Shown here in pieces: positions 33,975 through 52,959 of a stretch of DNA of 64,000 nucleotides (position 1 is its first letter; each line of letters starts with the position of its first letter). The notes beneath the pieces are model-generated. The model did not search any database, was not told the DNA's origin, and was given only the letters and a program-made list of their open reading frames with translations. Location of the stretch: NCBI RefSeq assembly GCF_002159645.1, contig NZ_NFJB01000009.1, forward strand, positions 1-64,000, written 5' to 3'. Source of the DNA: Parabacteroides sp. An277. Lineage in GTDB: Bacteria > Bacteroidota > Bacteroidia > Bacteroidales > Tannerellaceae. The position numbers and the translations under genes were made by a program.

Positions 33975-36773
33975 TTAATCCTCCATCGCCCAGCGGACAG
34001 TCCCCTGTATCCGGTCGCCCCGGCGCAGCGGACGATAATCGAGCGCGGCATGCGGTTCGATGTAAGCGCCTTTCCCGGCATTGCTGTAATCGGCTACGAG
34101 GAGGCGGAACGCGTCTCCCTCTTTCCAGCAACGGACATGCTGCTGGCCATCGGACGTGACGGTGAAGGCTTTACCCGTGGCGGGAGATGCAAGCCGTGCC
34201 GTGTAGATGTTCGCCTTGGTCGAGCGGAAGTTGTTCGAGCCGGATGCGGTTTGGTCTTGACTCCAATCGACGGTCGGTGGCTGTTCCGGTCCTGCCAATC
34301 CGCAGACAGGAAGGGCGGGGTTCATGAAGTCGGCTGTGCCTTCCAACGCGGCGATACTATGGGACGGATAGACGCTCCAATAACCTTTGCGCTTCCACGA
34401 GAGGCGGGTGAAGTCGGCAGGTAGCGTAAACGCCAACCCGACTTGACGGGGCGAAACAGCCTCTTTCAGGATGAAGTCGTAGTCCACTTCTGTTTCGCCT
34501 GTGTTTCGGAAACGATACGTAAGCGTCCCTTCCGCTTCTTTGTAAGTGCCTTTGACCGAGACCTCAATGCGGTCGGCGTATTGTTTTGTCGTAATCGAAT
34601 GGGCAATCCAGTTGGTGCAGACCGGTGTATAGGGGTCGAAGTTCTGTCCGCCGCCCAACATTTGGATGCCGCGCCCTTCGCTGTTCAGCGGAAGGACAAC
34701 CAAGGTAGGATTCAACCCTTCCAACAGGCCGGTACACTTATCGACGGCATATTCACCCGACAGAGAGCGGACGTGGATAGCTGCATCTGATTCATCAAAC
34801 GACAAATCGCCCTGAATCCGCTCTGCCTTCAGTCCGACGTGTGGCAAAAGTTGGAAGAAATAGGTATCTATCAAATAGCCTTGCGGGCTGTATACATCGA
34901 TATGCAGGGTATCTGCCTGGCGAAGGTGGGTGGGCAAGGAGAAAGCCAGGACGCTATCTTGACGAGCCGCCAAATCCCAATTTATCTTGCCTGATTTTCC
35001 TTCGGTACTCCACGTGATGCGGCAGTCGGTAAGGTTCAGGAAGTCGTGCCGGTTCTCTACGTCGAACAGCATTTGTCCTTCCTTATCTATGTTTCCTTTC
35101 AGCGCAAGGCGCACCGGGCTATAAGCCTTCTTCATGCCCCAGTATTCCGGTTTTTCGCGACGCCAGCCATCGATGACGCCCCACGTCCCATAACCTACGG
35201 CCCGTCCGCCAGGGAGGAAGAAGGTATCGTCGATGCCCACCCAAATGGCGCCACCCAAGACGCCTTGGCTGTGATACATGTCGCTCCACATCCGGTCGAG
35301 GAGTTCGCCCCAACGGTCGCGGATGCCCGGGTCGGCCGAAAGCTCCAAGCGGTTGTAGGCGTTCAGGTGACAATACTCGTCGAACACAATCGGGCGGCGA
35401 GCGTTGCGATACATTTCCGGACCTTCCGGACCCGGATAGTGGTGGTTACCGATTTCAAGTTCGTTCCCGTCTGCGTCGGGGCTCCACTGGCTGAAGTTGC
35501 GCGGGCGGGTCGGGTCCATCTCCTTGACGATTTCTGCCGCACGGGCAAAGCATTCCTCATACTTGAGTGATTCATTGCCGATAGACCAAATCAAGACGGA
35601 AGGATGAGAGCGGTTGAGGTTCACCATTTCCATGTGTTGGTTCACAAAAATAGCAGAATCGGTAGGAGAGACGTTCGCCTGGTGCGCCCAGCAGAACGGA
35701 GCTTCCAACTCGACATACATGCCCAGTTCGTCGCACGCTTCGAGGAGTGCTTCATCGGGTGGATAATGCGAAGTACGAATATAGTTCACATTTCCCCGGC
35801 GAAAGATTTCCACATCTTCCCGCCAGACGTCGCCCGTCAGCGAACGCCCCCGCAACGGCATCACTTCATGCCGGCATACACCGCGTAACTTAACGGGGTG
35901 ATTATTGACAAACAACTGGTTTCCACGTATCTCTATTTGACGGAAACCGACGCGGCGTTCAGTCGTATAGAGTTTCTTCCCGTCCTTTTCCAAGGTACAA
36001 GTCAGCGTATAAAGAGTCGGCGTTTCGGCCGTCCATTTCGCCGGGTTTTTTACCTTGAATTCAAAATGGTGCTTCCCTGCTTTTACCGTTTTGTTTTCGG
36101 AAAAGACAGTTGTCCCTTTCGGGTCTTTCAATACAAAACGGACGGAAAGAGCTTTCTCCTTTTTCGTGGCAGATTCGTCGGCGATTTCCATCTCGGTTCG
36201 CAAGGTGGCATCCGTATAGAGCGAATCTAAAAGCGTTTGCACGTGGAAAGAAGAGAGGTTCACTTCCGGAAGGGCGAAAAGGTAAATATCGCGTGTGATA
36301 CCTCCCAGGGGATGGACCGCGTAAAAGGAGCCATTCGAAGTAGAATCAGCCACCGTCTCAGAGGTCACGCCGATGCGGATGCGGTTTTCTCCGGTTCGTA
36401 CAGCGTCTGTCACATCCAGTTCAAAGGCTGTGAATCCACCTAAGTGCGAACCTACCTCTATTCCATTAACTTGAATACGAGCTTGGCTGTAAATCCCATT
36501 GCAACGGAGTTTTACCCGCTTGTCTTTCCAACGGCTGGGAACTTGAAACACACGTTCATAAATAGCTTCCTGGCCGGGTTCTATTTCAAAGCCTTGCATG
36601 ACCCATTCGCCAGGGACTTCAATCTTGCTTTTTTCATTGAACGTCCACGTTCCCGCCAAGGGCACGCATTCTTCGGCTACCTTTTGCGGCAAAGGAGAAA
36701 GGCGGGGTACAATGACCTCCGCTTTCAGACACACCGTTAAGGTTGCCATCATACATATCCAGAAATGTTTCAT
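33975..36773 (-). CDS. Glycoside hydrolase family 2 enzyme
   Basis: A secreted retaining exo-glycosidase of 932 residues, probably beta-galactosidase, beta-mannosidase or related; substrate cannot be told from sequence. After a signal peptide come the GH2 sugar-binding jelly-roll (about 40-170), an immunoglobulin-like domain (about 175-280) and the TIM barrel. The acid/base is E401 in SIGNESLKYEE and the nucleophile is E466 in PIVFDEYCHL. The C-terminal 350 residues match the beta-domain tail of large GH2 enzymes. It is the last gene of the glycan locus, 20 bp after the beta-propeller gene. Confidence 0.9.
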   Translation of the reverse strand: MKHFWICMMATLTVCLKAEVIVPRLSPLPQKVAEECVPLAGTWTFNEKSKIEVPGEWVMQGFEIEPGQEAIYERVFQVPSRWKDKRVKLRCNGIYSQARIQVNGIEVGSHLGGFTAFELDVTDAVRTGENRIRIGVTSETVADSTSNGSFYAVHPLGGITRDIYLFALPEVNLSSFHVQTLLDSLYTDATLRTEMEIADESATKKEKALSVRFVLKDPKGTTVFSENKTVKAGKHHFEFKVKNPAKWTAETPTLYTLTCTLEKDGKKLYTTERRVGFRQIEIRGNQLFVNNHPVKLRGVCRHEVMPLRGRSLTGDVWREDVEIFRRGNVNYIRTSHYPPDEALLEACDELGMYVELEAPFCWAHQANVSPTDSAIFVNQHMEMVNLNRSHPSVLIWSIGNESLKYEECFARAAEIVKEMDPTRPRNFSQWSPDADGNELEIGNHHYPGPEGPEMYRNARRPIVFDEYCHLNAYNRLELSADPGIRDRWGELLDRMWSDMYHSQGVLGGAIWVGIDDTFFLPGGRAVGYGTWGVIDGWRREKPEYWGMKKAYSPVRLALKGNIDKEGQMLFDVENRHDFLNLTDCRITWSTEGKSGKINWDLAARQDSVLAFSLPTHLRQADTLHIDVYSPQGYLIDTYFFQLLPHVGLKAERIQGDLSFDESDAAIHVRSLSGEYAVDKCTGLLEGLNPTLVVLPLNSEGRGIQMLGGGQNFDPYTPVCTNWIAHSITTKQYADRIEVSVKGTYKEAEGTLTYRFRNTGETEVDYDFILKEAVSPRQVGLAFTLPADFTRLSWKRKGYWSVYPSHSIAALEGTADFMNPALPVCGLAGPEQPPTVDWSQDQTASGSNNFRSTKANIYTARLASPATGKAFTVTSDGQQHVRCWKEGDAFRLLVADYSNAGKGAYIEPHAALDYRPLRRGDRIQGTVRWAMED

Positions 36774-36793: not shown

Positions 36794-38440
36794 TTATTGT
36801 TCCTTCTTTTTCTCCTCAAAGAGGTTTGTTCGACATGCTTTCCCGTCTTGAAGAAAAGATACTTGGCAGGCTTCCGTGTCCGACCACGCCTTCCCTTCGA
36901 GCTTCAGCGAAAGCGTTGTTTTCCCGTAAGGCTGCAAGGCTGGGACTTTCCCTTTCGCCTGGATTTTCCCGCTTTGCTCGACGACGATTTCCGTCTGGGG
37001 CGAAGCCGATAGACCGAAGTTCTCCACTTCGACCGTCAGCATTTCCTTATCTTTTTGATAGAGGGGGCGCAGGGCCGAGAGAATAGCCGGCTTGTAGTTT
37101 ACGTAGGGCAACGAGGCGTAGCCGAAGAGTAGTTTCCCCTGTTTGTCCTGCCCGAGGAGCTTCGGGGCGAACTCATCCGGCGTGATGCCCGAGGCCGTGC
37201 CGTCGAACGTGACGATGAGGTCTTTCCCATCCGCCTGACTTTCCAATGCCTTTCCGCCCCGTCCGAAGTTCACTTCCGTATACGAACCGAAGCGGAGCGA
37301 TGCTAGGTCGATGTCCCTCTGCGGATTAAAATCCTTTTCAGCCCGGATACGTACGCGGATTTCTTTCGTCTTGGGCGTGATGGGCTTTTCATTCAATACA
37401 TCGAGCAATATACCTTTGTTCATCGGCAGGCAAATGTTTTTCGAACTATGGTTGTCGTTTCCCAAATCATTCCATTTGATGGTGTCGATGACGGCGAAAT
37501 TCATCTGCGCCACGCGCCCTTCTGCGTCTTGGAACACCTTCGCCCGTTCGTATTTAAACCAATGCTCTACTTGCCCGTCGGCGTGAAAAGAGATGCCGGG
37601 CATATAGGCCTCGCCCTGTTCCACCACCCAATGCACACCGTCCAGCGAACGTTCGTAATAGGCAATGCGCCCGAGCCAATCGTTCACAATCAGATGATAT
37701 TGAAGCGAGTCGCGCCACACAACCGGATCTTCAAATTCACCCTTCACCGCCGGGTAGATGCGCTTCTCCGTAATCTGCCGATAAGGCGAAATCCCATCGC
37801 GGCTAATCCACACGCCTCCGCCGCGGCACACCATCAGATAGGAACCATCCTGACGCCGGGCGAAGGTGAGGTTGCTCAACCCCTCGATAATCCGCCGGTC
37901 GCGCGGCTCGAACGTGAACTTCCCGTACGTCCAAGGTCCGTTTACATCGTTGGCGATATAATATCCGTCAATTACATAGACTATAATCCGCCCATCGTCC
38001 AGCCGGAATGCCTCCGGGTTATGTCCCTTTCCAATCGTGTCTTGGATGGCATACGGCCCAGATAAGCGGTCGCTCACCGTATGATAGACCGTCGAGTTCG
38101 GCCACGTCATGTGTCCTTTGGGCGCACTTTCCGGCCAACCGCACACGAAGAGATGGAACTTCCCGTCCTTCGTCTGCAAGATATTTCCGCCCCAAAACGA
38201 AATGTCCGGACGCTCAATCCCATTATCCACAAAACGGGGTCGCACACTGTCCGCGCCCCATACATTATCCGTTAATTGCCCTTCGGGCATCGCCTCGAAG
38301 CGGTCCATATAGCGTCCGCCTTTCACCAATTGGTCCCATTCCGCCGGCCGTGTCCGCTCGGTGATTTGGGCTGGGAGCGAAGTGGATAGGAGAAACGTGC
38401 TGCACGCTATTCCTATCTGTATCAGTTTCGTTTTATTCAT
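36794..38440 (-). CDS. Five-bladed beta-propeller glycoside hydrolase-like protein (GH43/GH117 type)
   Basis: A 548-residue exported protein. Residues of about 50-370 have blade repeats of a five-bladed glycosidase (ERPDISFWGGNILQTKDGKFHLFVCGWPE, GHNPEAFRLDDGRIIVYVIDGYYIA, EGLSNLTFARRQDGSYLMVC, GEFEDPVVWRDSLQYHLIVND). Acidic residues at blade starts fit a GH43- or GH117-like active site. The family within this clan is uncertain. The rest is beta-sandwich. The frame opens at 38500, but MNKTKLIQIGIACSTFLL at 38440 begins the signal peptide. It forms one unit with the GH2 gene. Confidence 0.8.
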   Translation of the reverse strand: MNKTKLIQIGIACSTFLLSTSLPAQITERTRPAEWDQLVKGGRYMDRFEAMPEGQLTDNVWGADSVRPRFVDNGIERPDISFWGGNILQTKDGKFHLFVCGWPESAPKGHMTWPNSTVYHTVSDRLSGPYAIQDTIGKGHNPEAFRLDDGRIIVYVIDGYYIANDVNGPWTYGKFTFEPRDRRIIEGLSNLTFARRQDGSYLMVCRGGGVWISRDGISPYRQITEKRIYPAVKGEFEDPVVWRDSLQYHLIVNDWLGRIAYYERSLDGVHWVVEQGEAYMPGISFHADGQVEHWFKYERAKVFQDAEGRVAQMNFAVIDTIKWNDLGNDNHSSKNICLPMNKGILLDVLNEKPITPKTKEIRVRIRAEKDFNPQRDIDLASLRFGSYTEVNFGRGGKALESQADGKDLIVTFDGTASGITPDEFAPKLLGQDKQGKLLFGYASLPYVNYKPAILSALRPLYQKDKEMLTVEVENFGLSASPQTEIVVEQSGKIQAKGKVPALQPYGKTTLSLKLEGKAWSDTEACQVSFLQDGKACRTNLFEEKKKEQ

Positions 38441-38639
38441 ATAAGTTGTGTTGTTTATGATATTACCATGCAAAACAGAAAAGCCCTTTACCAAAAACAT
38501 CCTTTGCCCTTGTGAAAACTTTCCGAGTTGCCTATGGAATCTTCCTGTATCGACGTTATTTCTGTATCTTTAGGCTAAAGATAAACAAATATCGTCGATG
38601 TTTATACAAATATCGACGATAATTTGTGAAGATCTAGGC

Positions 38640-38809: not shown

Positions 38810-39352
38810 TTAGAAACCTTGGACGGTTTGCAGCACATAGTCTTCTGAAGAGCCATCGGCTGCTGTCACACGATAATAACGGTCTTGCGTATAGTCTCCT
38901 GGTTTGCCTAATGTGGGCGCGTTGTCGATTGGTGCAATGGTTGCGGCATCTGAAATCGAAACATAAACCCAAAGACGTGAAAGGCCGCTTTCCGTAATTT
39001 GTTGTTTAAACATTTCATAGAGCATTTCTTTTGTGACAGAACCGGTTGGTCCGGCTTTTTGAATACTATTCACATCGTGGGTCAATGTAGTACGGAAACC
39101 AGGAACGCCTTCTACATTGATTGTTTCAATGCTTTTATTAAAAATAACTTCGCATACGCGATCTGTTTCGATTTCTTCATTGATTGTTCCTTTTTGGATG
39201 GTATCATTATAGAAGAATCGATAGGTATATTCCACGTTCGTCATCTCTTTATTAGATGAATTTTCCAGCTCTTCCATGCCGTGATATAAGCAGCTGGTAT
39301 TGACAAGCAGAAGCATGAGTCCTGCGATTATACTGTTTGTTACTCTTTTCAT
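38810..39352 (-). CDS. Small SusCD-associated lipoprotein (DUF5018-like)
   Basis: A 180-residue lipoprotein, signal MKRVTNSIIAGLMLLLVNTSC with Cys21 as the lipidation site. It is predicted to be an outer-membrane surface accessory to the SusC/SusD pair directly upstream (28-bp gap). The end DRYYRVTAADGSSEDYVLQTVQGF resembles the tail of DUF5018-type proteins. No catalytic motif is visible. The start at 39352 is chosen over 39364 because it gives a standard signal peptide. Confidence 0.7.
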   Translation of the reverse strand: MKRVTNSIIAGLMLLLVNTSCLYHGMEELENSSNKEMTNVEYTYRFFYNDTIQKGTINEEIETDRVCEVIFNKSIETINVEGVPGFRTTLTHDVNSIQKAGPTGSVTKEMLYEMFKQQITESGLSRLWVYVSISDAATIAPIDNAPTLGKPGDYTQDRYYRVTAADGSSEDYVLQTVQGF

Positions 39353-39380
39353 TACGTTATTCATTTAATTGTTTGACATT

Positions 39381-41255
39381 TTATTCCCAACCCGGATTCT
39401 GTTCCACGCCAGCGTTCAAGCAGAATGTACGGTTTAGAGGTACCAAATAGCGTTTAGGAGAGAAGCGAGCTTCTCCAATCGGGTTGTTTACTTCAAAGAA
39501 TTCATACGTTTGTCCGTCCCTTGAGATACGGATGCCGCGCAATGGACCGACCAATTCTGGAATAACAAAGCCACTTGTGGCATAAGCTCCATTACCTACA
39601 CCTCCGCTTTGGCGCATTCCCCAACGAAGGAGTGACCAATAACGGTCATTGCATTCGTAAACCATTTCTACATTTCGTTCGCGCATATAAGCTCTGAACA
39701 ACGGGTCGTTCCATCCGTTTCCGCTTTTTGTGCTGAGATATGCCTCCGCTTTTTCTGCAGAGAATCCACCATGTTTTACCATAGTGGGAACCATATATTT
39801 GCGGGCATTGGCAAAGTCTCCTTTCATCAAATAGGCTTCAGCCATGTTCAAGTAAGCTTCGCCATAACGGAAAACGGAGAAGCAATAGTCCAGTTTTTGC
39901 GATCCAGGGTCTGGCAAAGAGACGATATGGTCGTAATGATATTTCAACATGGCATAGCCGGTAGAGGAATTATAGTTGTCTAAATCTCCGGCACGGCGTC
40001 CGTATTCATCTTCTGCTCCTGCATTAATAGGACTGTTTGAGTTCGAACAGTTGCCATCCCTACGGAAAAAGATGCGTTCCTGTCCGTTGAAATAAAGGCA
40101 GCTATCATATAGAATGGTGGTATAGAAACGCAAATCTCGTTTCTTCGTATCGCTGAAGTACATTTTTTCGTCTACGTTTCTTCCTGTCTGAACATAAGAC
40201 GCGTCTTCCCAATATTTGATAGTGCCGTCCGTATCTGCCACTAAGTAATCGTCTACCAAATCTTGTGTAGGCCAAGCACCTCCGTCCATACCCCAGAAGT
40301 TCATGGTTGACTTAATAGGGAAATGTTCTTTGGCATATTCAGAAATATTTCCAGCATACCATAACCCCTGATATTGCATCGGCGTGTCATACAAAGAGGT
40401 ATTCAAACTCAGACGTTCTACGATTAGGATATTCTCTTGTGCCGTGACTGCAGTTTCGTAAGAACGGAACAAATCATAATAAGGGCTTAATTGGCTACCT
40501 TCTGTATCTAATCCTAATTTCGTACCTGCGTCTATTACCATATTATAATATTCACTTTGGGCAGAACCACCATCTACATAAGCTGCTGCTTGATTAGCCG
40601 CACGCATAATCAAAGCATATGCAGCAGTACTGCTGACGCGTCCTCGGGCAACTTCTGTGGCTGGTGCTAATGCTGCAGCTGCTTCTTGCAAATCCTTTAA
40701 AAGAAAATCGTATGTTTCTTTGATGGAGGAACGTGGTATTTGCAAGTTGTCATCTGTAGACAATACGTGGTCGATGATTTGCAAACCTCCATATTGACGT
40801 GCAAAGAGAAAATAGTGGGCTGCACGTAAGAATTTCAATTCACCCATCATACGCGTCTTAAACTCTTCGGAGAAAATCTCGCTGTTACCGATTTCATCCA
40901 TGGCGGTATGGATACGCCATAAGACGCCATAATTCAGCCATTCGTAATTATCGTCGGCAGTAACGCCTTCAGCTAAGTCGCGAGACCAATATGAACTATT
41001 CATAGTTCCTTGCATCGCATTTTTGGTACAAGGTTCTGCCCGGCAAGAATAAACGCATCCATAGGCTCCGAGCCATAAATTTTGTTGTAACACATCAGCA
41101 TAAATGGATGTGACGAACGATTCCGCTAAATTTTCACTTGACCATGTATCGTCGCCCACGATTTTGTCATAAGGCTTTGTGTCCAAAAAGTCGGAACAAG
41201 AAACGTTTGTCAAAGCCAAGCATAACGCTGCGGCATATATGTATATTTTCTTCAT
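39381..41255 (-). CDS. SusD/RagB-family glycan-binding lipoprotein (locus 1)
   Basis: A surface lipoprotein of 624 residues that caps the SusC transporter and binds glycan. The signal MKKIYIYAAALCLALTNVSC sets Cys20 as the lipidation site, followed by the typical SDFLDTKPYDKIVGDDTW. The N-terminal helical TPR-like part contains LKFLRAAHYFLFARQYGG. The C-terminal RagB part contains VFRYGEAYLNMAEAYLMKGDFANARKY and RERNVEMVYECNDRYW. It is 19 bp after its susC and probably depends on that transcript. Confidence 0.93.
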   Translation of the reverse strand: MKKIYIYAAALCLALTNVSCSDFLDTKPYDKIVGDDTWSSENLAESFVTSIYADVLQQNLWLGAYGCVYSCRAEPCTKNAMQGTMNSSYWSRDLAEGVTADDNYEWLNYGVLWRIHTAMDEIGNSEIFSEEFKTRMMGELKFLRAAHYFLFARQYGGLQIIDHVLSTDDNLQIPRSSIKETYDFLLKDLQEAAAALAPATEVARGRVSSTAAYALIMRAANQAAAYVDGGSAQSEYYNMVIDAGTKLGLDTEGSQLSPYYDLFRSYETAVTAQENILIVERLSLNTSLYDTPMQYQGLWYAGNISEYAKEHFPIKSTMNFWGMDGGAWPTQDLVDDYLVADTDGTIKYWEDASYVQTGRNVDEKMYFSDTKKRDLRFYTTILYDSCLYFNGQERIFFRRDGNCSNSNSPINAGAEDEYGRRAGDLDNYNSSTGYAMLKYHYDHIVSLPDPGSQKLDYCFSVFRYGEAYLNMAEAYLMKGDFANARKYMVPTMVKHGGFSAEKAEAYLSTKSGNGWNDPLFRAYMRERNVEMVYECNDRYWSLLRWGMRQSGGVGNGAYATSGFVIPELVGPLRGIRISRDGQTYEFFEVNNPIGEARFSPKRYLVPLNRTFCLNAGVEQNPGWE

Positions 41256-41274: not shown

Positions 41275-44200
41275 TTAGAAACCGATTTGAAATCCCATTG
41301 AGTAAGTACGCATCATGGGATAATTATATCCGTCGAAAGTGGATGCTTCCGGATCCGCATATTTTACGGACGGTCCGATTGCAAAAAGATTCACGCCAGA
41401 GGCAAATAACGTCAAGTTGCTGATCCAATCTACCTTTTTCAATACGGAATATTTGAAATCGTAGGAGAGTGTCAGCGATTTTAAACGGACATAATTCGTA
41501 TTGCGTGCCCAAAAGTCCGATGTCTGGTAGTTGTTGTTTTCATTCAACGATGTATTACCAGCTCTTGGAAAATCGGCATCTGTATTATTGGGTGCCCATG
41601 TATCTAATTGGTAGACAAAATCCAGTCGGCGTTCACCCTCTTGCGCCATGGCGAATGAGTTCATGTAAGTCTGACGCCTTCCTGTTCCTTGGATGTTTGC
41701 TAATAAACTGAATCCTCTCCAACTGGCAGACAAATCAATGCCAAATACGAATCTGGGATCCGAGTTATTACCAAATTTGCGTTGGTCTTGTCCGGTGATT
41801 TGTCCGTCCCCATTGGCATCCCAATACCATAAATCACCTGGACGAAGGTCTTTCGAGTTGAGCCGTTTGGGATTATTCAAGACATCTTCCGGAGTTTGAT
41901 AAAATTGGGTATTTATATAACCTGTGTTTACATATCCATATTCATAACCTTGTTCTCGTGTATAAGGGTTTGACAAGGTCACTTTGTCTTCATTGGTTTT
42001 GAATGCAAGAGAATGATACCACGTAAAGTTAAATCCAGCTGAGAAATTGACTTCACCGAATTTATCTGTGTATTTCAAATAGCCATCCACACCTTCCGAA
42101 CGGTCTTCTGCATCCGAAACAATCATCGGCAGGTCGTAGCCAATCGGGTCTGTATATTCATAATTGGGTGCTGCTAAAAATCCTTTTGTGCTCTCATAGA
42201 AATAATCTAATGAACCTTCCAGCCGTTCGCCTAAAGTGGCAAAGTCAATGCCAATATCTGTTTTCCGGCGAGTGTACCAAGTCATATTGATACTTGGAGT
42301 GGCACCAGGTGTGATAGAATTGACCAGGCTGCCACCGATTACGTATGCATTGGAATTATAATTGTATGTAGTCATGTAGGCATAGTCGTCGTGTGTGGCG
42401 CCATTGATACCGATTTCTCCGTAAGAACCGCGTACTTTTAGATAATCGAATATACCTAAATCCTTTACTGGAGCGAAGAACTCTTCTTCCGAAATAGCCC
42501 AACCTAAGGAACCTGATGGGAAAAATCCGAAACGGTTACCTTTGGGAAAACAATCCGAACCATCATAACGGCCGGAGAATTCAACCATGTAGCGGTTGTC
42601 AAAATCATATCGGAAACGGCCTACGTAACCAATCCAAGCCTGTTCACTCTCGCTATTACTTGCCGTGATACTGGATGCATCGCCGTTTTGCAATTGATGG
42701 ATAGTGTTTAAATAGAATGTATTGGCACTTGCACTCAAAGAAGTTCCATGATACCATTGTCGGTTATGTACTAATGTGACTAATACATTATGCTTTTCAT
42801 TGAACGTATTCTTGTAGTCTATCTTTACGTTGAAATCATATCTATTGTGTTGATAAGACGAACGTGTCAGGCTAATATTGGATGGATCTTCATACGTTGC
42901 ATTGCCATCTGCATCGTAATAAGTTGCATTTTCATACCAATCTGCACGATCTTGCGTTTCAATGTTGTAATTTCCATCTACTCCTAATGTTAAACCTTTT
43001 ACCCAAGGTATAGCCCATTCTAGGTTAACAGCCAATTGGTTGTAAACCGTGCGATATTTGATTTCCCCGGGTCCGTCTAATTGTAAAGCTGGATTGTCAA
43101 ATTGATTAGATATGGTACCATCTTCGTTGTATGGGCGTTCAAAAGGAGTTCGGTCTTTCAATCGGGAATAAAGTGTCCAAGCGCTGGCGCTGGGATAGGC
43201 TTCGTCCTTCACAGTGCCGTTTACATTCAATCCCACTGTTAATCCGATTTCATCAAAGTTGCTACTTACGTTTGTTCGATAATTGTACCTGTCGTAATCC
43301 AATTTATCGGATTTGTAAATACCTCGTTGTCCTAAATAGTTTAAGCTGCCGAAATATTTCAATCTGTCTGTGCCTCCACTGATAGAAACGGTATGTTCAT
43401 TTTGTGGGGCAGAACCACGCAGCAATTCCTTTTCCCAGTTTGTATAAGAATTTACATTGGCTGCTATTTCTGCCATTTGTTCCGGACTTCGGAAGGCGTT
43501 GATGCCGTTTCCTAGCGATTGATATAGTTTGTTGATTGCCGTTGCATATTCATACGCGTCCATACGTTCAGCTGTATATGAAGGCGAATTGAATGCAAAA
43601 TTGGCTTGATAATTAACAGATAATTTTCCGGATTGTCCCTGTTTGGTTTTAATCACGACAACACCGTTACCTGCATTCATACCGTAAACGGCTGTAGAAG
43701 CGGCATCTTTTAATACGGTCATTGATTCAATATCGGCTTTATTCAAAGCCTGAAAGCGAGCTGCAGTGGATACGAATCCATCAATAACATATAATGGTTC
43801 GTCGTTGCCTCGGATTGAGATACTGGCTCCATTCTGTCCTGGTTCGGCTGATCCTTGTTGTACAATAACACCTGGCACACGACCTTGAAGTGTAGAGCCC
43901 ATATCGGAAAAAGGTACTTCTAGTACTTTTTCATTCTCTACAACAGCAAGTGAAGTTGTGTTTTTCCGCACACTGGTAGAACCATAACCAACTACAATGA
44001 CTTCGTCTAAAGTTTTCGAATCTTCGCGTAATACGATCTTGAAGGAGGTTTTGTTTCCAGTTATTTTTAATTGATGTGGTAAGTAACCGATGTAGGTAAT
44101 TTCCAAGATAGCGTTAGCCGGTGCTTCGATAGCGAATTTACCGTCTAAGTCTGTAATTACACCATTCGTAGTCCCTTTCACTACCACATTCGCTCCAATC

Positions 44201-44410
44201 ACCGGCACACCTGCATTGTCTACAACAGTACCTGTAATCTTGATGGTTTGTTGCACATAATCCGTAGATAAACCTAATGGATTATCTGTAATTGGTTGAT
44301 TCATAGGAGAATTACCCCCCCCCTATTGCGGCGTTTGCCAGCAATGGGCTTCCACATAACAAGGTAAGTACGTATGCCTTACCTATGGGCTTTGTTAAAC
44401 AACTGTTCAT
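41275..44410 (-). CDS. SusC/RagA TonB-dependent transporter (locus 1), frame broken at a G9 tract
   Basis: An outer-membrane glycan importer, about 1044 residues when in frame. The signal peptide is encoded from the ATG at 44410 (MNSCLTKPIGKAYVLTLL...LLANAAIGGG) but runs into TAA at 44314-44312 after nine G. The main frame resumes with codons leading into MNQPITDNPLGL (44304). It then has VQQTIKITGTVVDNAG (carboxypeptidase-like domain), the TonB box region DEVIVVGYG, the plug (DAASTAVYGMNAGNGVVVIKTK) and a C-terminal barrel ending FQIGF. With eight G the two parts fuse into a normal SusC like the one at 49822-52959. As read it is OFF; a sequencing error in the homopolymer is the alternative. 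Confidence 0.88.
44315..44323 (-). repeat. G9 homopolymer in the susC signal-peptide region
   Basis: Nine C on the plus strand (nine G in the coding strand) lie at codons 30-32 of susC locus 1. Eight G would restore the full frame; nine gives an immediate TAA. Confidence 0.9.
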
Positions 44411-44441
44411 GATAATTTAGATTAGAATGTTATTCTTGGTG

Positions 44442-44449
44442 CAAAATTA
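44442..44449 (-). promoter_or_regulatory. Promoter -7 element of susC locus 1
   Basis: Minus-strand TAATTTTG fits TAnnTTTG, 32 bp before the signal-peptide ATG at 44410. This supports 44410 as the true start, not 44304. Confidence 0.65.
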
Positions 44450-44592
44450 TCGAACATTAAGTTAGCAATCTATAGAAAAATAGGTGTAAAAGGTTGTAAA
44501 AAGGGAACAAGTTTCGGTGAATTAGAATTAATTTCGGAAAAAGGGTAATTGGGGAGCAAAATTATCATAATAATAACCCAAAAACGGTCTTT

Positions 44593-44656
44593 TTCATTAC
44601 GTCGTATTGACACTCTCAATATGGCGGAAAGACATCCTCAATCCGCCGTATTGAGA
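44593..44656. repeat. 22-bp periodic palindromic array, partial copy
   Basis: Units start at 44593 (TTCATTACGTCGTATTGA), 44615 (CTCAATATGGCGG) and 44637 (CTCAATCCGCCGTATTGAG), exactly 22 bp apart. The last 50 bases nearly match 53408-53460. It lies upstream of the susC locus 1 promoter. Confidence 0.75.
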
Positions 44657-44825
44657 AAAGCAGTCTATGAAGGGCTGATGCATTAAAAAGAATATAGATT
44701 ATCAAGTACTTATTATTTAATATATACTGATATGATAGGCAAAAAGTAACTTTTTATCTTGTTTTGGTATATGTTTAAAATATCAGATGCTCTGAATATC
44801 AACGATTTTAATAATGTATCAACCC

Positions 44826-45000
44826 TGCAGGCATTACCGAAAGTTTTCCTCCGGTCTTTCCCAGTTTTCCTTGGAGTCAAATAACTTTTCGGTGGTAAAA
44901 TTACACAATAAACCGCATATAAAAATCCCCCGACCTGGCGAAAAATATCGCAAAAAGGGAACAGGATCGGGGGATTTGGGGAGAAATCGGAACTCAATCA
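44826..45000. repeat. Conserved 3' intergenic block with terminator, copy 2
   Basis: Matches 38640-38800 across about 170 bases with scattered differences, beyond the GH92 stop. It includes a hairpin ATCCCCCGACCTG...CAGGATCGGGGGAT (44927-44981), followed by TTTTTATATG on the minus strand, so it also ends GH92 transcription. Confidence 0.75.
44927..44981 (-). terminator. Terminator after the GH92 gene
   Basis: CCCCCGA with TCGGGGG and CCTG with CAGG form the stem; the minus strand continues ATTTTTATATG. Confidence 0.75.
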
Positions 45001-45019
45001 GGTGTTTCCGATTAAAAAC

Positions 45020-47758
45020 TTATTGTTCGGCCGGATAATTTGCTTTGTTATCCATCCAAAGCTCCAGCAATCCTCCCTTGGCAAAGTCCTTATGATAGAA
45101 GTAGAATGTATCCAAAGACTTCCCGTTCAAGCGACTCTTCTGGATGTAACAATTCTCTTTCGAGTTGTTGTAGGTCTTGATAACAAATTCTTTCCCGGAA
45201 TAATATTGGGGCGAGAGCTTGATACGGACGACATCGAATACGGGCGAAGTAATCTCATACACCGGCTCCATCGAGCAAGTTCCTTTCAAGCTAAATAGTC
45301 CGATAGACATCAAAGCGCTTACGCCACCCATTTGTCCCTGGTCCTCATCATGGCCTCCGTATCCTTTTCCTGGGGAGGTCGCTCCGTAAGCCTTCTCGTT
45401 TACTTGGCGGACCCAATATTGGGTCAGATGAGGCGCTCCCGCATAATTGAACACATGTGCGTTCGAGCATCCGGGTTGATTCGCGTAACTCACATAACCA
45501 CTCCCATATCCAAAGACAAAAGATTCATCTTTCGCTTGTTCGAAAGCATAGTTTAGCTTCTCGCAAAGCTTAGTTTCTCCACCCATAAGTTTTATCAACT
45601 CATCGATGCCATGCGAGACGGACCAAGTGGCTTGCCAGGAGTTCGCTTCCACCCATCCGGCTCCGCTCAAGGGATCTAGGTGTAGCCATGAGCCATCGGC
45701 TTTCTTAGGGAATAGGAGTTGTTGTTCTTTATTATATAATGTCTTCCAACCTTGTGAACGCTTCTCGAAATAGCGGGCATCTTTCTTCTTGCCCATCTTG
45801 TAGGCCATTTGTCCCAAGGCCCAATCTTGGAAAGCGGCTTCCAATGTGAGGCCCGCATTATCCGCAAAATAACCATGCTTTTCATAGAAGCGAATGGACT
45901 TGGCATCTCCCAGCATCCCATCTTGATGATTCTTATACATCCAATGATACGCTTTCTCCGCAGAGGTCTTTGTCAGAATTCCTTTTTGATATGCGCTGGT
46001 GATGAGGGAGGTTCCCGGACATCCGGTCATGATGTAGGAATAGCCTCCGGCGTTCGGGCCACGAGGGATTAGGCCTCCGTTCTCCGCATATTGCACCAGA
46101 CAAGCCGCGAAATCGTCTTGCACTTCCGGCCAAGCCAATCCCCATAGGATATTCAGGTTCCATTGGGTTAGCCAGAACGCATCGGAATTATACATATGGA
46201 AGAGAGACTTTCCCTCGGCGTCTTTGGGTAAAGTCCGGGTCTTGTAACGGATGTTTATCGTTTGGCTTCCCCTTCTTTCCCCGTCCGTATAGTCGGGATA
46301 GTCTCCATTGACATCATCTATCTTGTGGCGACCCAATAAGACATGCCATAAATCCGTATAGAACTTGACCTGTTGGTCCTCCGTTCCGCCTTCCACCTCG
46401 ATGCGTCCTAAATAATCGTTCCAGATATTCCGGGCCTCGGCGCAAGTGCGATTGAAATCCCAATCCTTTATCTCGGAACGAAGATTAAGCCGGGCGTTCT
46501 CTACGCTGGTATAAGAAATAGCGCATTTCACCTTGATTTCCTCTCCCGTTTGTAGAGGGAAGCCCATCCGTACGCCCGCGGAAGGCGCGTCATAATACGT
46601 CATTCCTTTATGCCGGGCCTTGGCTTTCCCCGTCCCGGTTAGCGAGGAAATGTCCGAGTAGAGGGTGGAATCATCCCAGCCATCCAACTGCTCCATCGGT
46701 TTGTCCAGTTGCAGGGCGAAATAGATTTTCACGCTATCGGGACCTCCCCATAAACGCCCCATAGTGGTGACCTCTCCTTCTATTTCCGTCGGGCTCACCT
46801 TTCTTGCCTTCGCGTTGGTCATGGTGGTGGTGGCCACGTATCCGCCTAGGTTTAAGAGGAGTCCTAAATCGGTTTTCCCCGGTCCGGCGTATTGAAAACG
46901 GTAAAAGCTCACACGGTCCAGGGAGGTTTGTTCTACCCACAGGTTATATTTCTCCAAGAAAACCCGATGATAACCCGGCCTGGCGATTTCTCCCTCGTGG
47001 CGAAACGGAGATTTCCATCCATTCTCTCCTTCCGATACCCGCACATCCCCCGTGGTGGGCATGAGCGTTATTCCCGAGAGCATCCAATCATGCACCTGCG
47101 GGAATCCCAAGATTTCGGTGGAGTTATAGTTATATCCCCCTCCATATTGGTTCTTATTGCGGGTGAGGGGGGCCGCGCTAATCATCCCGAAGGGCAGGCT
47201 TCCCGTCACGAAGAAGAAGTAACGCCCCCGGGTGGTCTCGATGAAGGGATTGACCTTGGAGACGAAATCCCGATGAGACGCTCCGCAAGTGTTTACCTCT
47301 ATCTCAGACAATCCCACCTCGGTGCCATCCGCGTCCGTGCATTCGAAGCGCACCCAGCGCACTTTTTTCTCCGGGAATTTTATGGATTTAGGGGCTCCGT
47401 CGTTCGGTATCTCGTACACCTCTATCTCGGAACCGTCGCTAAAGTGGAGCACCCCTCCCGCCACGTGGCTATCCGGCGAGGGGCGGTCGTAGAGCAAAAC
47501 CTCGTTGATGCTTTCCTCCTGCTCCCAATTTAGTTTTATCCAAGGGTAATCGATTTGCCCGTAGAAGTTCACGCTCCCTTTCGAGCGCCATTCCCCTTGG
47601 TCGAAAAGGCGTCCTTTCCCGTCAATCGCCTTATTACCCTCATACCCCTCGATTTCCGAGGAGACTTCCACTTTCGCGCTAGGAGCGATGTTATCCCCCG
47701 TCGCGAAAGCAGGAAACGCGAGGGCCGCCGATAGAATCGTAAGAAATAAATGTCTCAT
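45020..47758 (-). CDS. GH92 alpha-mannosidase with N-terminal discoidin-like domain
   Basis: A Ca2+-dependent inverting exo-alpha-mannosidase of 912 residues, probably periplasmic or surface-exposed (signal MRHLFLTILSAALAFPAFA). Residues of about 25-150 form an F5/8 type C-like carbohydrate-binding domain (NIAPSAKVEVSSEIEGYEGNKAIDG). The GH92 beta domain starts at VNPFIETTRGRYFFFVTGSLPFGM and the alpha/alpha barrel follows (YNSDAFWLTQWNLNILWGLAWPE). The catalytic signature GGHDEDQGQMGG is at 801-812. The mannosidase suggests the locus handles alpha-mannose-containing glycans such as host N-glycans or yeast mannan. A terminator separates it from the next susC. Confidence 0.92.
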   Translation of the reverse strand: MRHLFLTILSAALAFPAFATGDNIAPSAKVEVSSEIEGYEGNKAIDGKGRLFDQGEWRSKGSVNFYGQIDYPWIKLNWEQEESINEVLLYDRPSPDSHVAGGVLHFSDGSEIEVYEIPNDGAPKSIKFPEKKVRWVRFECTDADGTEVGLSEIEVNTCGASHRDFVSKVNPFIETTRGRYFFFVTGSLPFGMISAAPLTRNKNQYGGGYNYNSTEILGFPQVHDWMLSGITLMPTTGDVRVSEGENGWKSPFRHEGEIARPGYHRVFLEKYNLWVEQTSLDRVSFYRFQYAGPGKTDLGLLLNLGGYVATTTMTNAKARKVSPTEIEGEVTTMGRLWGGPDSVKIYFALQLDKPMEQLDGWDDSTLYSDISSLTGTGKAKARHKGMTYYDAPSAGVRMGFPLQTGEEIKVKCAISYTSVENARLNLRSEIKDWDFNRTCAEARNIWNDYLGRIEVEGGTEDQQVKFYTDLWHVLLGRHKIDDVNGDYPDYTDGERRGSQTINIRYKTRTLPKDAEGKSLFHMYNSDAFWLTQWNLNILWGLAWPEVQDDFAACLVQYAENGGLIPRGPNAGGYSYIMTGCPGTSLITSAYQKGILTKTSAEKAYHWMYKNHQDGMLGDAKSIRFYEKHGYFADNAGLTLEAAFQDWALGQMAYKMGKKKDARYFEKRSQGWKTLYNKEQQLLFPKKADGSWLHLDPLSGAGWVEANSWQATWSVSHGIDELIKLMGGETKLCEKLNYAFEQAKDESFVFGYGSGYVSYANQPGCSNAHVFNYAGAPHLTQYWVRQVNEKAYGATSPGKGYGGHDEDQGQMGGVSALMSIGLFSLKGTCSMEPVYEITSPVFDVVRIKLSPQYYSGKEFVIKTYNNSKENCYIQKSRLNGKSLDTFYFYHKDFAKGGLLELWMDNKANYPAEQ

Positions 47759-49821: not shown

Positions 49822-52800
49822 TTAGAATGATACATTAATACCGAATGAATGTGTACGCAACAACGGGTAAGAAGACAAACGCTGGCTTGTAGCTTCCGGG
49901 TCGATGTTGATCTTCATGCCATCGATGGTAAACAAATTCTCTACCGAATAGTAAACACGGACATTGCTCAATCCGATAGAACTTAACACGCTCTTCGGAA
50001 TCGTGTAACCAAACTGCAAGTTTTTCAAGCGCAGATAGCTGGTGTTTTGTAACCAGAATGTGGATTGCGCATTACGCGAACAACTGGGTGATTGCGTTCC
50101 GGTGAAAATACGCGGCATTTCAGCGTCTGTATTTTCCGGTGTCCACGCATCTTTCCAAATAGAAGCCGGATGACCAGCATCACCCGTGAAGGCACCGTAT
50201 ACTTCGAAGGCGTCAAACAAACGAGCTACTTTGGCCGCGCCGTTGAACATCAACGAAAGGTCAAATCCTTTCCAACCGGCGTTCAGGTTCAATCCGAAGG
50301 TGTAAACCGGTTCAGTGGAATTACAAATCACACGGTCGTCGCCATTCAATGTACCATCGCCATTTACATCGGCATAACGGATATCACCGGCTTTGAAATC
50401 GCCACCACCAAACGGGTTGCCGTATTGTGCCGTATAAGCATCTGCTTCTTCTTGTGATTGGAAGAAACCGTCGGCTTGATATACGTAATAAGAATTGAGG
50501 GCATGACCTTCATAGTTGCGTTGTTCGTAACCGGTAGTCAGATACCTGTCTTTTAGGGCAACGTCGTCAGAGAAACCCAAATCGAGGATTTCATTGTGGT
50601 TGTAGCTGAAGTTTGCGCTGGCGCCGAATGTCCAATCGCCCCATTTATCGTTGTAAGCGATGTTCAATTCCACACCGTTATTGCGCATTTCACCGACATT
50701 GTCGAAGTATGCACCCAGGGCAAATTCGTCTGGTACGGAAACTTCCATAATGATGCCCGTCGTATTACGGCTATAATAATCGAACGAACCGGAAATCTTA
50801 TTATTCAAGAAAGCGAAATCCAAACCAATGCCCCACGTCGAAGCCTTTTCCCACGTGATGCTTTCCAAGCGATACGCATCTTGGTAATAGCCGGAATTCA
50901 AGGCACCGCCGAATACATAAGAAGCACCGAGTGAATAGGTATTCAAGGCCGGATAATAGTTTGCGGAAGAATCTGCAGATGTCAAGGCATCCTGATTACC
51001 CAACAAACCCCATGAAGCACGGAGCTTTAAGTTCGTCAACCAATCTTTCGTATTCTCCATGAATGCCTCTTCGCTGATTCGCCAAGCTCCAGAGAATGAT
51101 GGGAAATAACCCCAGCGGTTCCCTTCCAAGAAACGGGAAGAAGCATCCGCACGGATATTACCTTCTAAAATATACTTACCGGCAAAGTCATAGTTCACGC
51201 GGGCAAACCATGAAACCATGGCTAATTCACGTGTATAGCCTTCGTTCGTTTGTGTAGCAGCATCACCGGCGTTGAGGTCGGTCAAATCGTTTGTTGGGAA
51301 GTTTTGGCGGAAGGCTTGTTGATAGCGGTAATTGTATTTTTCCGTGTGCCAACCGGCCAATGCCTTCAGGTTGTGTTGCCCGAAACTCTTTTCGTAGTTC
51401 AGCAATGCGTCGTAATTGGTGCGGTCCCAACGATAATAACGTTCGTCTAATTGGCTGGGTTCCGTCGATTTGTTGGCATTGTAAGCGAAATAAGGACGGA
51501 AATCGCGGTAGTTCTGCAAATCGTTTACATAAGCTCCTGTCAACGACAACGTCAATCCGTCCATGATCTTATAATCCAATCCTAAGAATCCGGTGAAGTT
51601 GTAATTATCGCGCGTTACTTTCATTTCATTATCCAACCACGCAATTGGGCTACCATCGGCAATTGAACCCCATGTACCGTCCGGATAACGAGCCACAATC
51701 CAGGGCGCAATCACATTCAACTGACGTACTAACTGATCGGAACTACCCCCGTAATACGTAGAGTTCGCATCGTCGTATTCATTCTTGATAAACGAAAGGT
51801 TCAAACGGGCGCTCAAGCGATCGGTAATCTTCATGTCCAAGTTCGTGCGGGCATTGAATTGTTCACGTCCGGCGTTGGGCAAGATACCGGTCTGGTTCAA
51901 ATAACCCACCGAAGCCATGTATTTTGCATTTTCTGAACCACCATTGATATTGATGTTATGGCGATGCTGTACACCTGTCTTGTAGGCCAAACCGTACCAA
52001 TCGGTGTTCGGGTAATTCGGGTCGGTCCCATCGCGGAACTTTTGGATTTCTTCGTCCGTGAAGCGTGGCGTACTACCTTCTGCTACCAATGCTTGGTTGT
52101 ACATCGTAGCATAATCATACGAACTCAAACGGTCTATTAATTCTGTTGCATTCTGGAAGCTGACATAGCCGCTATACGAAATACGTGGCTTGCCTGTCGT
52201 ACCGCGCTTGGTCGTAATCAAGATGACACCGTTCGAAGCCTTCGAACCGTAGATAGCGGCCGAGGCGGCATCCTTCAAGACAGAAATGCTTTCGATATCG
52301 TTCGGGTCGACTTCACTCATCGTACCGGCTTCTACACCATCAATCAAGATGTACGGGTCGGCTGTGTTCAACGTACCTGTACCACGGATACGGATATTAC
52401 CGGCATCTTGACCTGGCGCACCATTCGTGCCTGTGACGGTCACACCCGGCATCAAACCTTGTAAACCGCTGCTGATGTTTTGGATAGGACGGTCTTGCAG
52501 GGCTTTGCTATCTACCGTAGCTACCGAACCGGAAAGGTTTACTTTCTTTTGCGTACCATAACCTACGACTACGACTTCGCTCAGTTGCTCAGAATCTTCT
52601 TTCAGGGTAATAGAAAGCGGTTTGCTATCTGTCACGGTGATGGTTTGTTCTGAAAAGCCTACATAAGAAATGGAGAGGACGGAACCGGCTTCACCTTCGA
52701 GTGTGAAATTACCATCCATGTCGGTGATGGTTCCGTTGGTTGTACCTTTAATGACGACATTGGCACCGATAATCGGCATGCCGGTGTTGTCAATCACTTT

Positions 52801-52959
52801 TCCTGTAATCTTGATTGTCTGCTGAACCGCGTTCGAAACAGGCAAGTCCGAGGCAGGATTCGTTCCGGCCCAAACAGCCGGAGCCGACAAAGACAAGGCT
52901 AATAATGCCGCTGTCCCTACGCGCATCGCGGAAGTGTTCCCAGGGGTTAACTTGTTCAT
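49822..52959 (-). CDS. SusC/RagA TonB-dependent transporter (locus 2), behind an invertible promoter
   Basis: An outer-membrane importer of 1045 residues that works with the SusD downstream. A signal peptide (MNKLTPGNTSAMRVGTAALLALSLSAPAVWA) precedes the carboxypeptidase-like domain (VQQTIKITGKVIDNTGMPIIGANVV, about 45-125), the TonB-box-like EVVVVGYGTQKKVN, the plug (DAASAAIYGSKASNGVILITTK, about 235) and the barrel, which ends FGINVSF. The ORF is intact. Expression is predicted to depend on the invertible segment 53023-53251, now in the ON orientation. Confidence 0.95.
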   Translation of the reverse strand: MNKLTPGNTSAMRVGTAALLALSLSAPAVWAGTNPASDLPVSNAVQQTIKITGKVIDNTGMPIIGANVVIKGTTNGTITDMDGNFTLEGEAGSVLSISYVGFSEQTITVTDSKPLSITLKEDSEQLSEVVVVGYGTQKKVNLSGSVATVDSKALQDRPIQNISSGLQGLMPGVTVTGTNGAPGQDAGNIRIRGTGTLNTADPYILIDGVEAGTMSEVDPNDIESISVLKDAASAAIYGSKASNGVILITTKRGTTGKPRISYSGYVSFQNATELIDRLSSYDYATMYNQALVAEGSTPRFTDEEIQKFRDGTDPNYPNTDWYGLAYKTGVQHRHNININGGSENAKYMASVGYLNQTGILPNAGREQFNARTNLDMKITDRLSARLNLSFIKNEYDDANSTYYGGSSDQLVRQLNVIAPWIVARYPDGTWGSIADGSPIAWLDNEMKVTRDNYNFTGFLGLDYKIMDGLTLSLTGAYVNDLQNYRDFRPYFAYNANKSTEPSQLDERYYRWDRTNYDALLNYEKSFGQHNLKALAGWHTEKYNYRYQQAFRQNFPTNDLTDLNAGDAATQTNEGYTRELAMVSWFARVNYDFAGKYILEGNIRADASSRFLEGNRWGYFPSFSGAWRISEEAFMENTKDWLTNLKLRASWGLLGNQDALTSADSSANYYPALNTYSLGASYVFGGALNSGYYQDAYRLESITWEKASTWGIGLDFAFLNNKISGSFDYYSRNTTGIIMEVSVPDEFALGAYFDNVGEMRNNGVELNIAYNDKWGDWTFGASANFSYNHNEILDLGFSDDVALKDRYLTTGYEQRNYEGHALNSYYVYQADGFFQSQEEADAYTAQYGNPFGGGDFKAGDIRYADVNGDGTLNGDDRVICNSTEPVYTFGLNLNAGWKGFDLSLMFNGAAKVARLFDAFEVYGAFTGDAGHPASIWKDAWTPENTDAEMPRIFTGTQSPSCSRNAQSTFWLQNTSYLRLKNLQFGYTIPKSVLSSIGLSNVRVYYSVENLFTIDGMKINIDPEATSQRLSSYPLLRTHSFGINVSF

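Follow-up and report, generated by a model that had tools for sequence, protein, structure and literature searches.

Haemoglobin receptors of Neisseria meningitidis, HmbR and HpuAB, are switched by poly-G tracts inside their reading frames (PMC3786947), and poly-G/C contingency loci are also described in Campylobacter and Helicobacter (PMC2823697, PMC11868660). In Bacteroides, a review credits invertases with the phase variation of SusC/SusD (PMC11868660), citing for Bacteroides fragilis the invertase-controlled SusC/SusD variation of Nakayama-Imaohji 2009. Slippage has been suggested as a possibility for a B. fragilis acetyltransferase gene that has four C in a row (PMC3090145). In the literature that we searched, mostly papers open without a subscription and hence weak evidence of absence, homopolymer phase variation is nowhere described for SusC or for Parabacteroides.

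Those who look for surface variation in gut Bacteroidales usually look for DNA inversion. Phase variation by homopolymer tracts is in itself a familiar mechanism, and an on/off switch by slippage is rarely considered in this bacterial group. Slippage tracts escape inversion-based searches, and genes that are OFF are easily mistaken for frameshifted pseudogenes. Here we describe a run of nine G inside a susC gene of the window, by which we mean the whole stretch of 64,000 nucleotides that was analysed. Very probably this run acts as a phase-variation switch by homopolymer slippage (slipped-strand mispairing), OFF as assembled, and is one of a set of such loci across Parabacteroides and perhaps in other Bacteroidales too.

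Results

A tract of nine G splits a susC frame

All features of the locus lie on the minus strand. An ATG at 44410 opens a signal-peptide frame (44312-44410) that reads MNSCLTKPIGKAYVLTLLCGSPLLANAAIGGG* and ends in a TAA at 44314-44312, directly after nine G at 44323-44315, and the final three glycine codons of this frame are those nine consecutive G. The rest of the SusC, with its CarboxypepD_reg, plug and barrel regions, is a 1009-aa ORF (41275-44304) that is open throughout and one base off the signal-peptide frame. With eight G, the two frames fuse into a 1044-aa protein without an internal stop, while nine G give a 32-residue peptide, so that the signal peptide is out of frame with the receptor as assembled and in frame at eight. 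The sequence-only reading had described both this ending, three GGG codons and a TAA, and the exact joining at eight G, and both descriptions hold. Two features of an SSR contingency locus are present at the G9, namely a long homopolymer inside an ORF and a toggle between full length and an early stop on a change of one unit.

Against the TIGR04056 profile the ORF at 41275-44304 scores 821 bits (cut-off 368), a full-length SusC/RagA match, and Pfam finds CarbopepD_reg_2 and Plug in it. The out-of-frame signal peptide is the proposed switch, and membership of the SusC family is not lost. The N-terminus of the SusC joined at G8 aligns with that of the window's second SusC (49822-52959) and with those from Parabacteroides faecis and from a Phocaeicola MAG. 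The motif VQQTIKITG stands at a similar distance in the joined protein and in this second SusC, as had been noted from the sequence at the outset. That earlier reading had also named a decayed downstream ORF as evidence against a switch; we checked for decay, and the ORF is undecayed.

The box TAATTTTG at 44449-44442 matches the Bacteroidetes -7 promoter box and lies 31 bases 5' of the ATG, in agreement with the promoter proposed at this place earlier, and no clear -33 TTTG was seen with it. We found no inverted repeats bracketing the promoter at 44442-44449; the three inverted repeats in 44150-45100 sit elsewhere. Inversion is therefore unsupported, and we rejected an invertible promoter (inverton) as the SusC switch. 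Between a GH92 gene and the SusC promoter, at 44614-44656 of the window, there is a 15-nt inverted repeat with a 13-nt loop that could be a terminator.

The gene unit and its conservation

The SusC gene run includes an intact SusD partner lipoprotein (39381-41255; Pfam SusD_RagB and SusD-like_3; 83% identity in P. faecis), a small lipoprotein related to DUF5018 by Pfam (38810-39364; 68% identity in P. faecis), a secreted 568-aa protein to which the Pfam scan assigned no family (36794-38500), and a glycoside hydrolase family 2 enzyme, also placed by Pfam (33975-36773; 57% identity in the P. faecis locus). The SusD, the small lipoprotein and the family 2 enzyme adjoin the SusC ortholog in P. faecis too. 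SusC and this ortholog are 82% identical, with a pN of 0.11 and a saturated pS of 0.80, values that point to purifying selection on SusC.

The sequence-only reading had the whole SusC/SusD/lipoprotein unit switched by tract length and OFF here. For SusC itself, this is supported by the intact ORF and by the sister tracts given below. The tract interrupts the translation of SusC, and the SusD and the lipoprotein each have an intact start of their own, so switching of the whole unit is something that we only infer. An ATG at 44304 could restart translation, and the product would be without a signal peptide.

The closest orthologs, those of P. faecis and the Phocaeicola MAG (70%), have no G run at this site; their signal peptides join directly to the rest of the protein, so the placing of a tract at precisely this codon is not shared. 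Either this lineage acquired the tract or the lineages of P. faecis and the Phocaeicola MAG lost it. Among the genomes compared, no second one with a tract at this SusC site was found.

Poly-G/C runs across the genome

The 3.68-Mb genome has only nine runs of eight or more G, and 24 of seven or more G/C. Taking as the SusC set the 30 full-length genes above the TIGR04056 cut-off, six of the 24 runs lie within the first ~400 nt of a SusC gene (binomial P about 1.5e-10), as do four of the nine longer ones (P about 1.4e-8). Three of the SusC tracts, each a G8, are in frame and thus ON (C8:57156, C25:131073 and C41:4749, given as contig and position). The other three are out of frame and OFF: a G7 at C8:27357, seven C in the sense strand at C19:35537-35543, and the G9 of the window (C91:44315). 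A change of one base would join each of these three. A 776-aa gene of outer-membrane type (C38:28054) begins with a seventh tract and is out of frame at its G8 and in frame at G7. We excluded it from the main SusC count, since only a weak TIGR04056 fragment speaks for a TonB-dependent receptor and Pfam was blank in the part scanned.

In contrast, all 12 runs of at least seven G/C inside ordinary ORFs keep the frame. Fisher's test, run when ten of these were known and before two more in-frame cases were added, compared the in-frame tracts among the seven outer-membrane ones, C38 included (3/7), with the ordinary ones (10/10) and gave P 0.015. That the ordinary runs are all in frame and the SusC runs mixed argues against assembly noise.

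Elsewhere in the genome, the sequence G8TAAAT is found at C11:63872-63879 (L128), within a surface-polysaccharide cluster, where it precedes by ~50 bases the stop of a 389-aa gene that lies just ahead of a glycosyltransferase gene; other lengths truncate or alter the C-terminus and may change translational coupling. At C1:179067-179074 (L129), a proline-rich lipoprotein has eight C in the sense strand upstream of its signal sequence. Seven would link the lipoprotein to an upstream start, and it looks OFF as assembled.

Tract length in relatives

Comparing one genome per species, we found orthologous SusC genes whose tracts differ in length. The gene at C8:27357 has G7 (OFF) in our genome and G11 in G025 (ON), the C41 gene has G8 (ON) both here and in G020 and G7 in G011 (OFF), and the C19 tract is seven long here and nine in G020, out of frame in both. 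In polysaccharide-type genes of other Parabacteroides, with 1-kb flanks that are 97-98.5% identical, tracts of 9 vs 7, 8 vs 11 and 13 vs 10 G were observed. Variation is not seen at every locus, since four sister tracts are equal in length between our genome and G020 (8/8, 8/8, 7/7 and 8/8). At several loci of the poly-G class, tract length thus outpaces flank divergence.

Orthologous susC genes had been suggested earlier as the place to look for a conserved poly-G at this codon. The direct P. faecis ortholog has none, but tracts in the same kind of position do occur in further SusC genes, both here and in related species, with lengths of 7, 8, 9 and 11 and with ON and OFF states mixed. SusC genes with short open frames in G060 and G014 were dropped as candidates, because their signal peptides are ordinary and a tract is absent.

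A wider motif in Bacteroidales

The pattern G7TRAWT occurs at 58 places in 39 Parabacteroides genomes, against 17 for the mirrored pattern (binomial about 1e-6), and G8TRAWT at 67 places in 129 Bacteroidales genomes, against 12 (about 1e-10), counts that take in the loci which suggested the motif and use the mirrored pattern as one of several possible controls. A flank like TAA(A/T)T is 3 to 6 times commoner on the G strand than its mirror image, and it is present even where the G strand is antisense (C19:35537-35543 and C1:179067). An immediate stop in the shifted frame is thus not the full explanation of the TAA flank, and we rejected selection for such a stop as its sole cause, as this would not cover the antisense-G tracts at C19 and C1.

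Tracts are set in SusC reading frames and in surface-polysaccharide-type genes, the latter judged from their sequences and not by a family search. In G032, a Parabacteroides, three SusC-like genes and a receptor-like one (L189, L214, L215 and L216) are preceded at a distance of 110-170 nt by runs of G8-G9, which could act there on the promoter. A search of 393 Bacteroidales genomes for a G8 of the reading-frame type, limited in what could match by a pattern whose anchor lay about 106 to 166 bases downstream, found only our genome and one other genus (G404 and G043), besides two chance-like matches. Matches to the SusC pattern were also obtained at G014:C1:1814940, in G098 and in G252.

The G404 and G043 loci (L139, L140 and L141), from a different family of the order (f9), have poly-G of 8, 8 and 10 near SusC-like starts, and one is out of frame at G8. 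In G013, around 1.54 Mb (L185), adjacent units have a G8 and a G18, the latter the longest run seen, each upstream of a gene starting M(R/I)RSMMGRKK. At G022:C7:1412858 (L135) a hydrolase-like gene has within its signal peptide a G9 that keeps the frame, and in L081, from a Bacteroidales MAG with many N, a C12 (around 2523-2535) lies ~85 nt upstream of a SusC start.

Discussion

Could the tract simply have been miscounted? If the real tract has eight G and the ninth arose in sequencing or assembly, the gene is never off. The genome is a single assembly of 101 contigs and homopolymers are typical error sites, but every one of the 12 ordinary-gene runs in this assembly is in frame, whereas three SusC genes and a further outer-membrane gene are not, and by its position and class the tract would be a slippage site even with a miscounted length. 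We consider an error unlikely. It is quite unlikely that a recent one-base insertion killed SusC for good and left a young pseudogene, since its 1009 codons have no further lesion, the SusD and the lipoprotein are intact, a G run eases reversal, and unrelated SusC genes repeat the same arrangement, although a fixed loss would account for a broken gene here beside intact, tract-free orthologs.

Ribosomes and polymerases can slip on long G runs, which makes some leakage at G9 plausible. If ribosomal frameshifting or slippage of RNA polymerase allowed expression despite the ninth G, tract length would tune SusC and not switch it. However, the TAA right behind the run halts the zero frame, and several sister loci have precisely the length that joins their frames, which would be needless if the ribosome corrected the frame, and we regard this explanation as very improbable.

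We favor slippage at the G9 because of the anatomy of the site, the intact and selected ORF, the mixed phases of the sister loci and the differences in tract length between orthologs. A single G gained or lost during replication would bring the signal peptide into the frame of the mature transporter or take it out; eight or 11 G would give a complete, exported SusC (ON) and nine the 32-residue peptide (OFF), with the switch acting on translation. Within a population, the tract at this locus would change length at a high rate, and OFF cells would be without this importer. By analogy with other phase-variable receptors, the benefit may be bet-hedging, whether for escape from phage or antibody or for nutrient choice.

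On a larger scale, we give about even chances to the idea that Bacteroidales have, beside DNA inversion, an undescribed second layer of phase variation. In it, poly-G tracts throughout the genome, with the recurrent flank G(7-13)TAA(A/T)T, would follow signal peptides or lie in promoter regions or surface-polysaccharide genes, and would switch both SusC importers and glycan enzymes. Should tract length switch SusC importers as well, then predictions of glycan use, phage sensitivity and surface antigens from genomes would go wrong.

Among known systems, the Campylobacter and Helicobacter loci are similar in having homopolymer tracts in surface genes genome-wide, and differ in the genes and the lineage. 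B. fragilis shares with the proposed switch the ON/OFF variation of SusC/SusD in Bacteroidales, but its mechanism is site-specific DNA inversion, whereas here no repeats bracket the promoter and the switch would be at the level of translation. HmbR and HpuAB resemble the locus in being outer-membrane nutrient receptors with poly-G inside the reading frame. They are, however, proteobacterial iron receptors, and what we describe here is a Bacteroidota SusC with its SusD, in a class where the tract mostly comes after the signal peptide or the STN domain.
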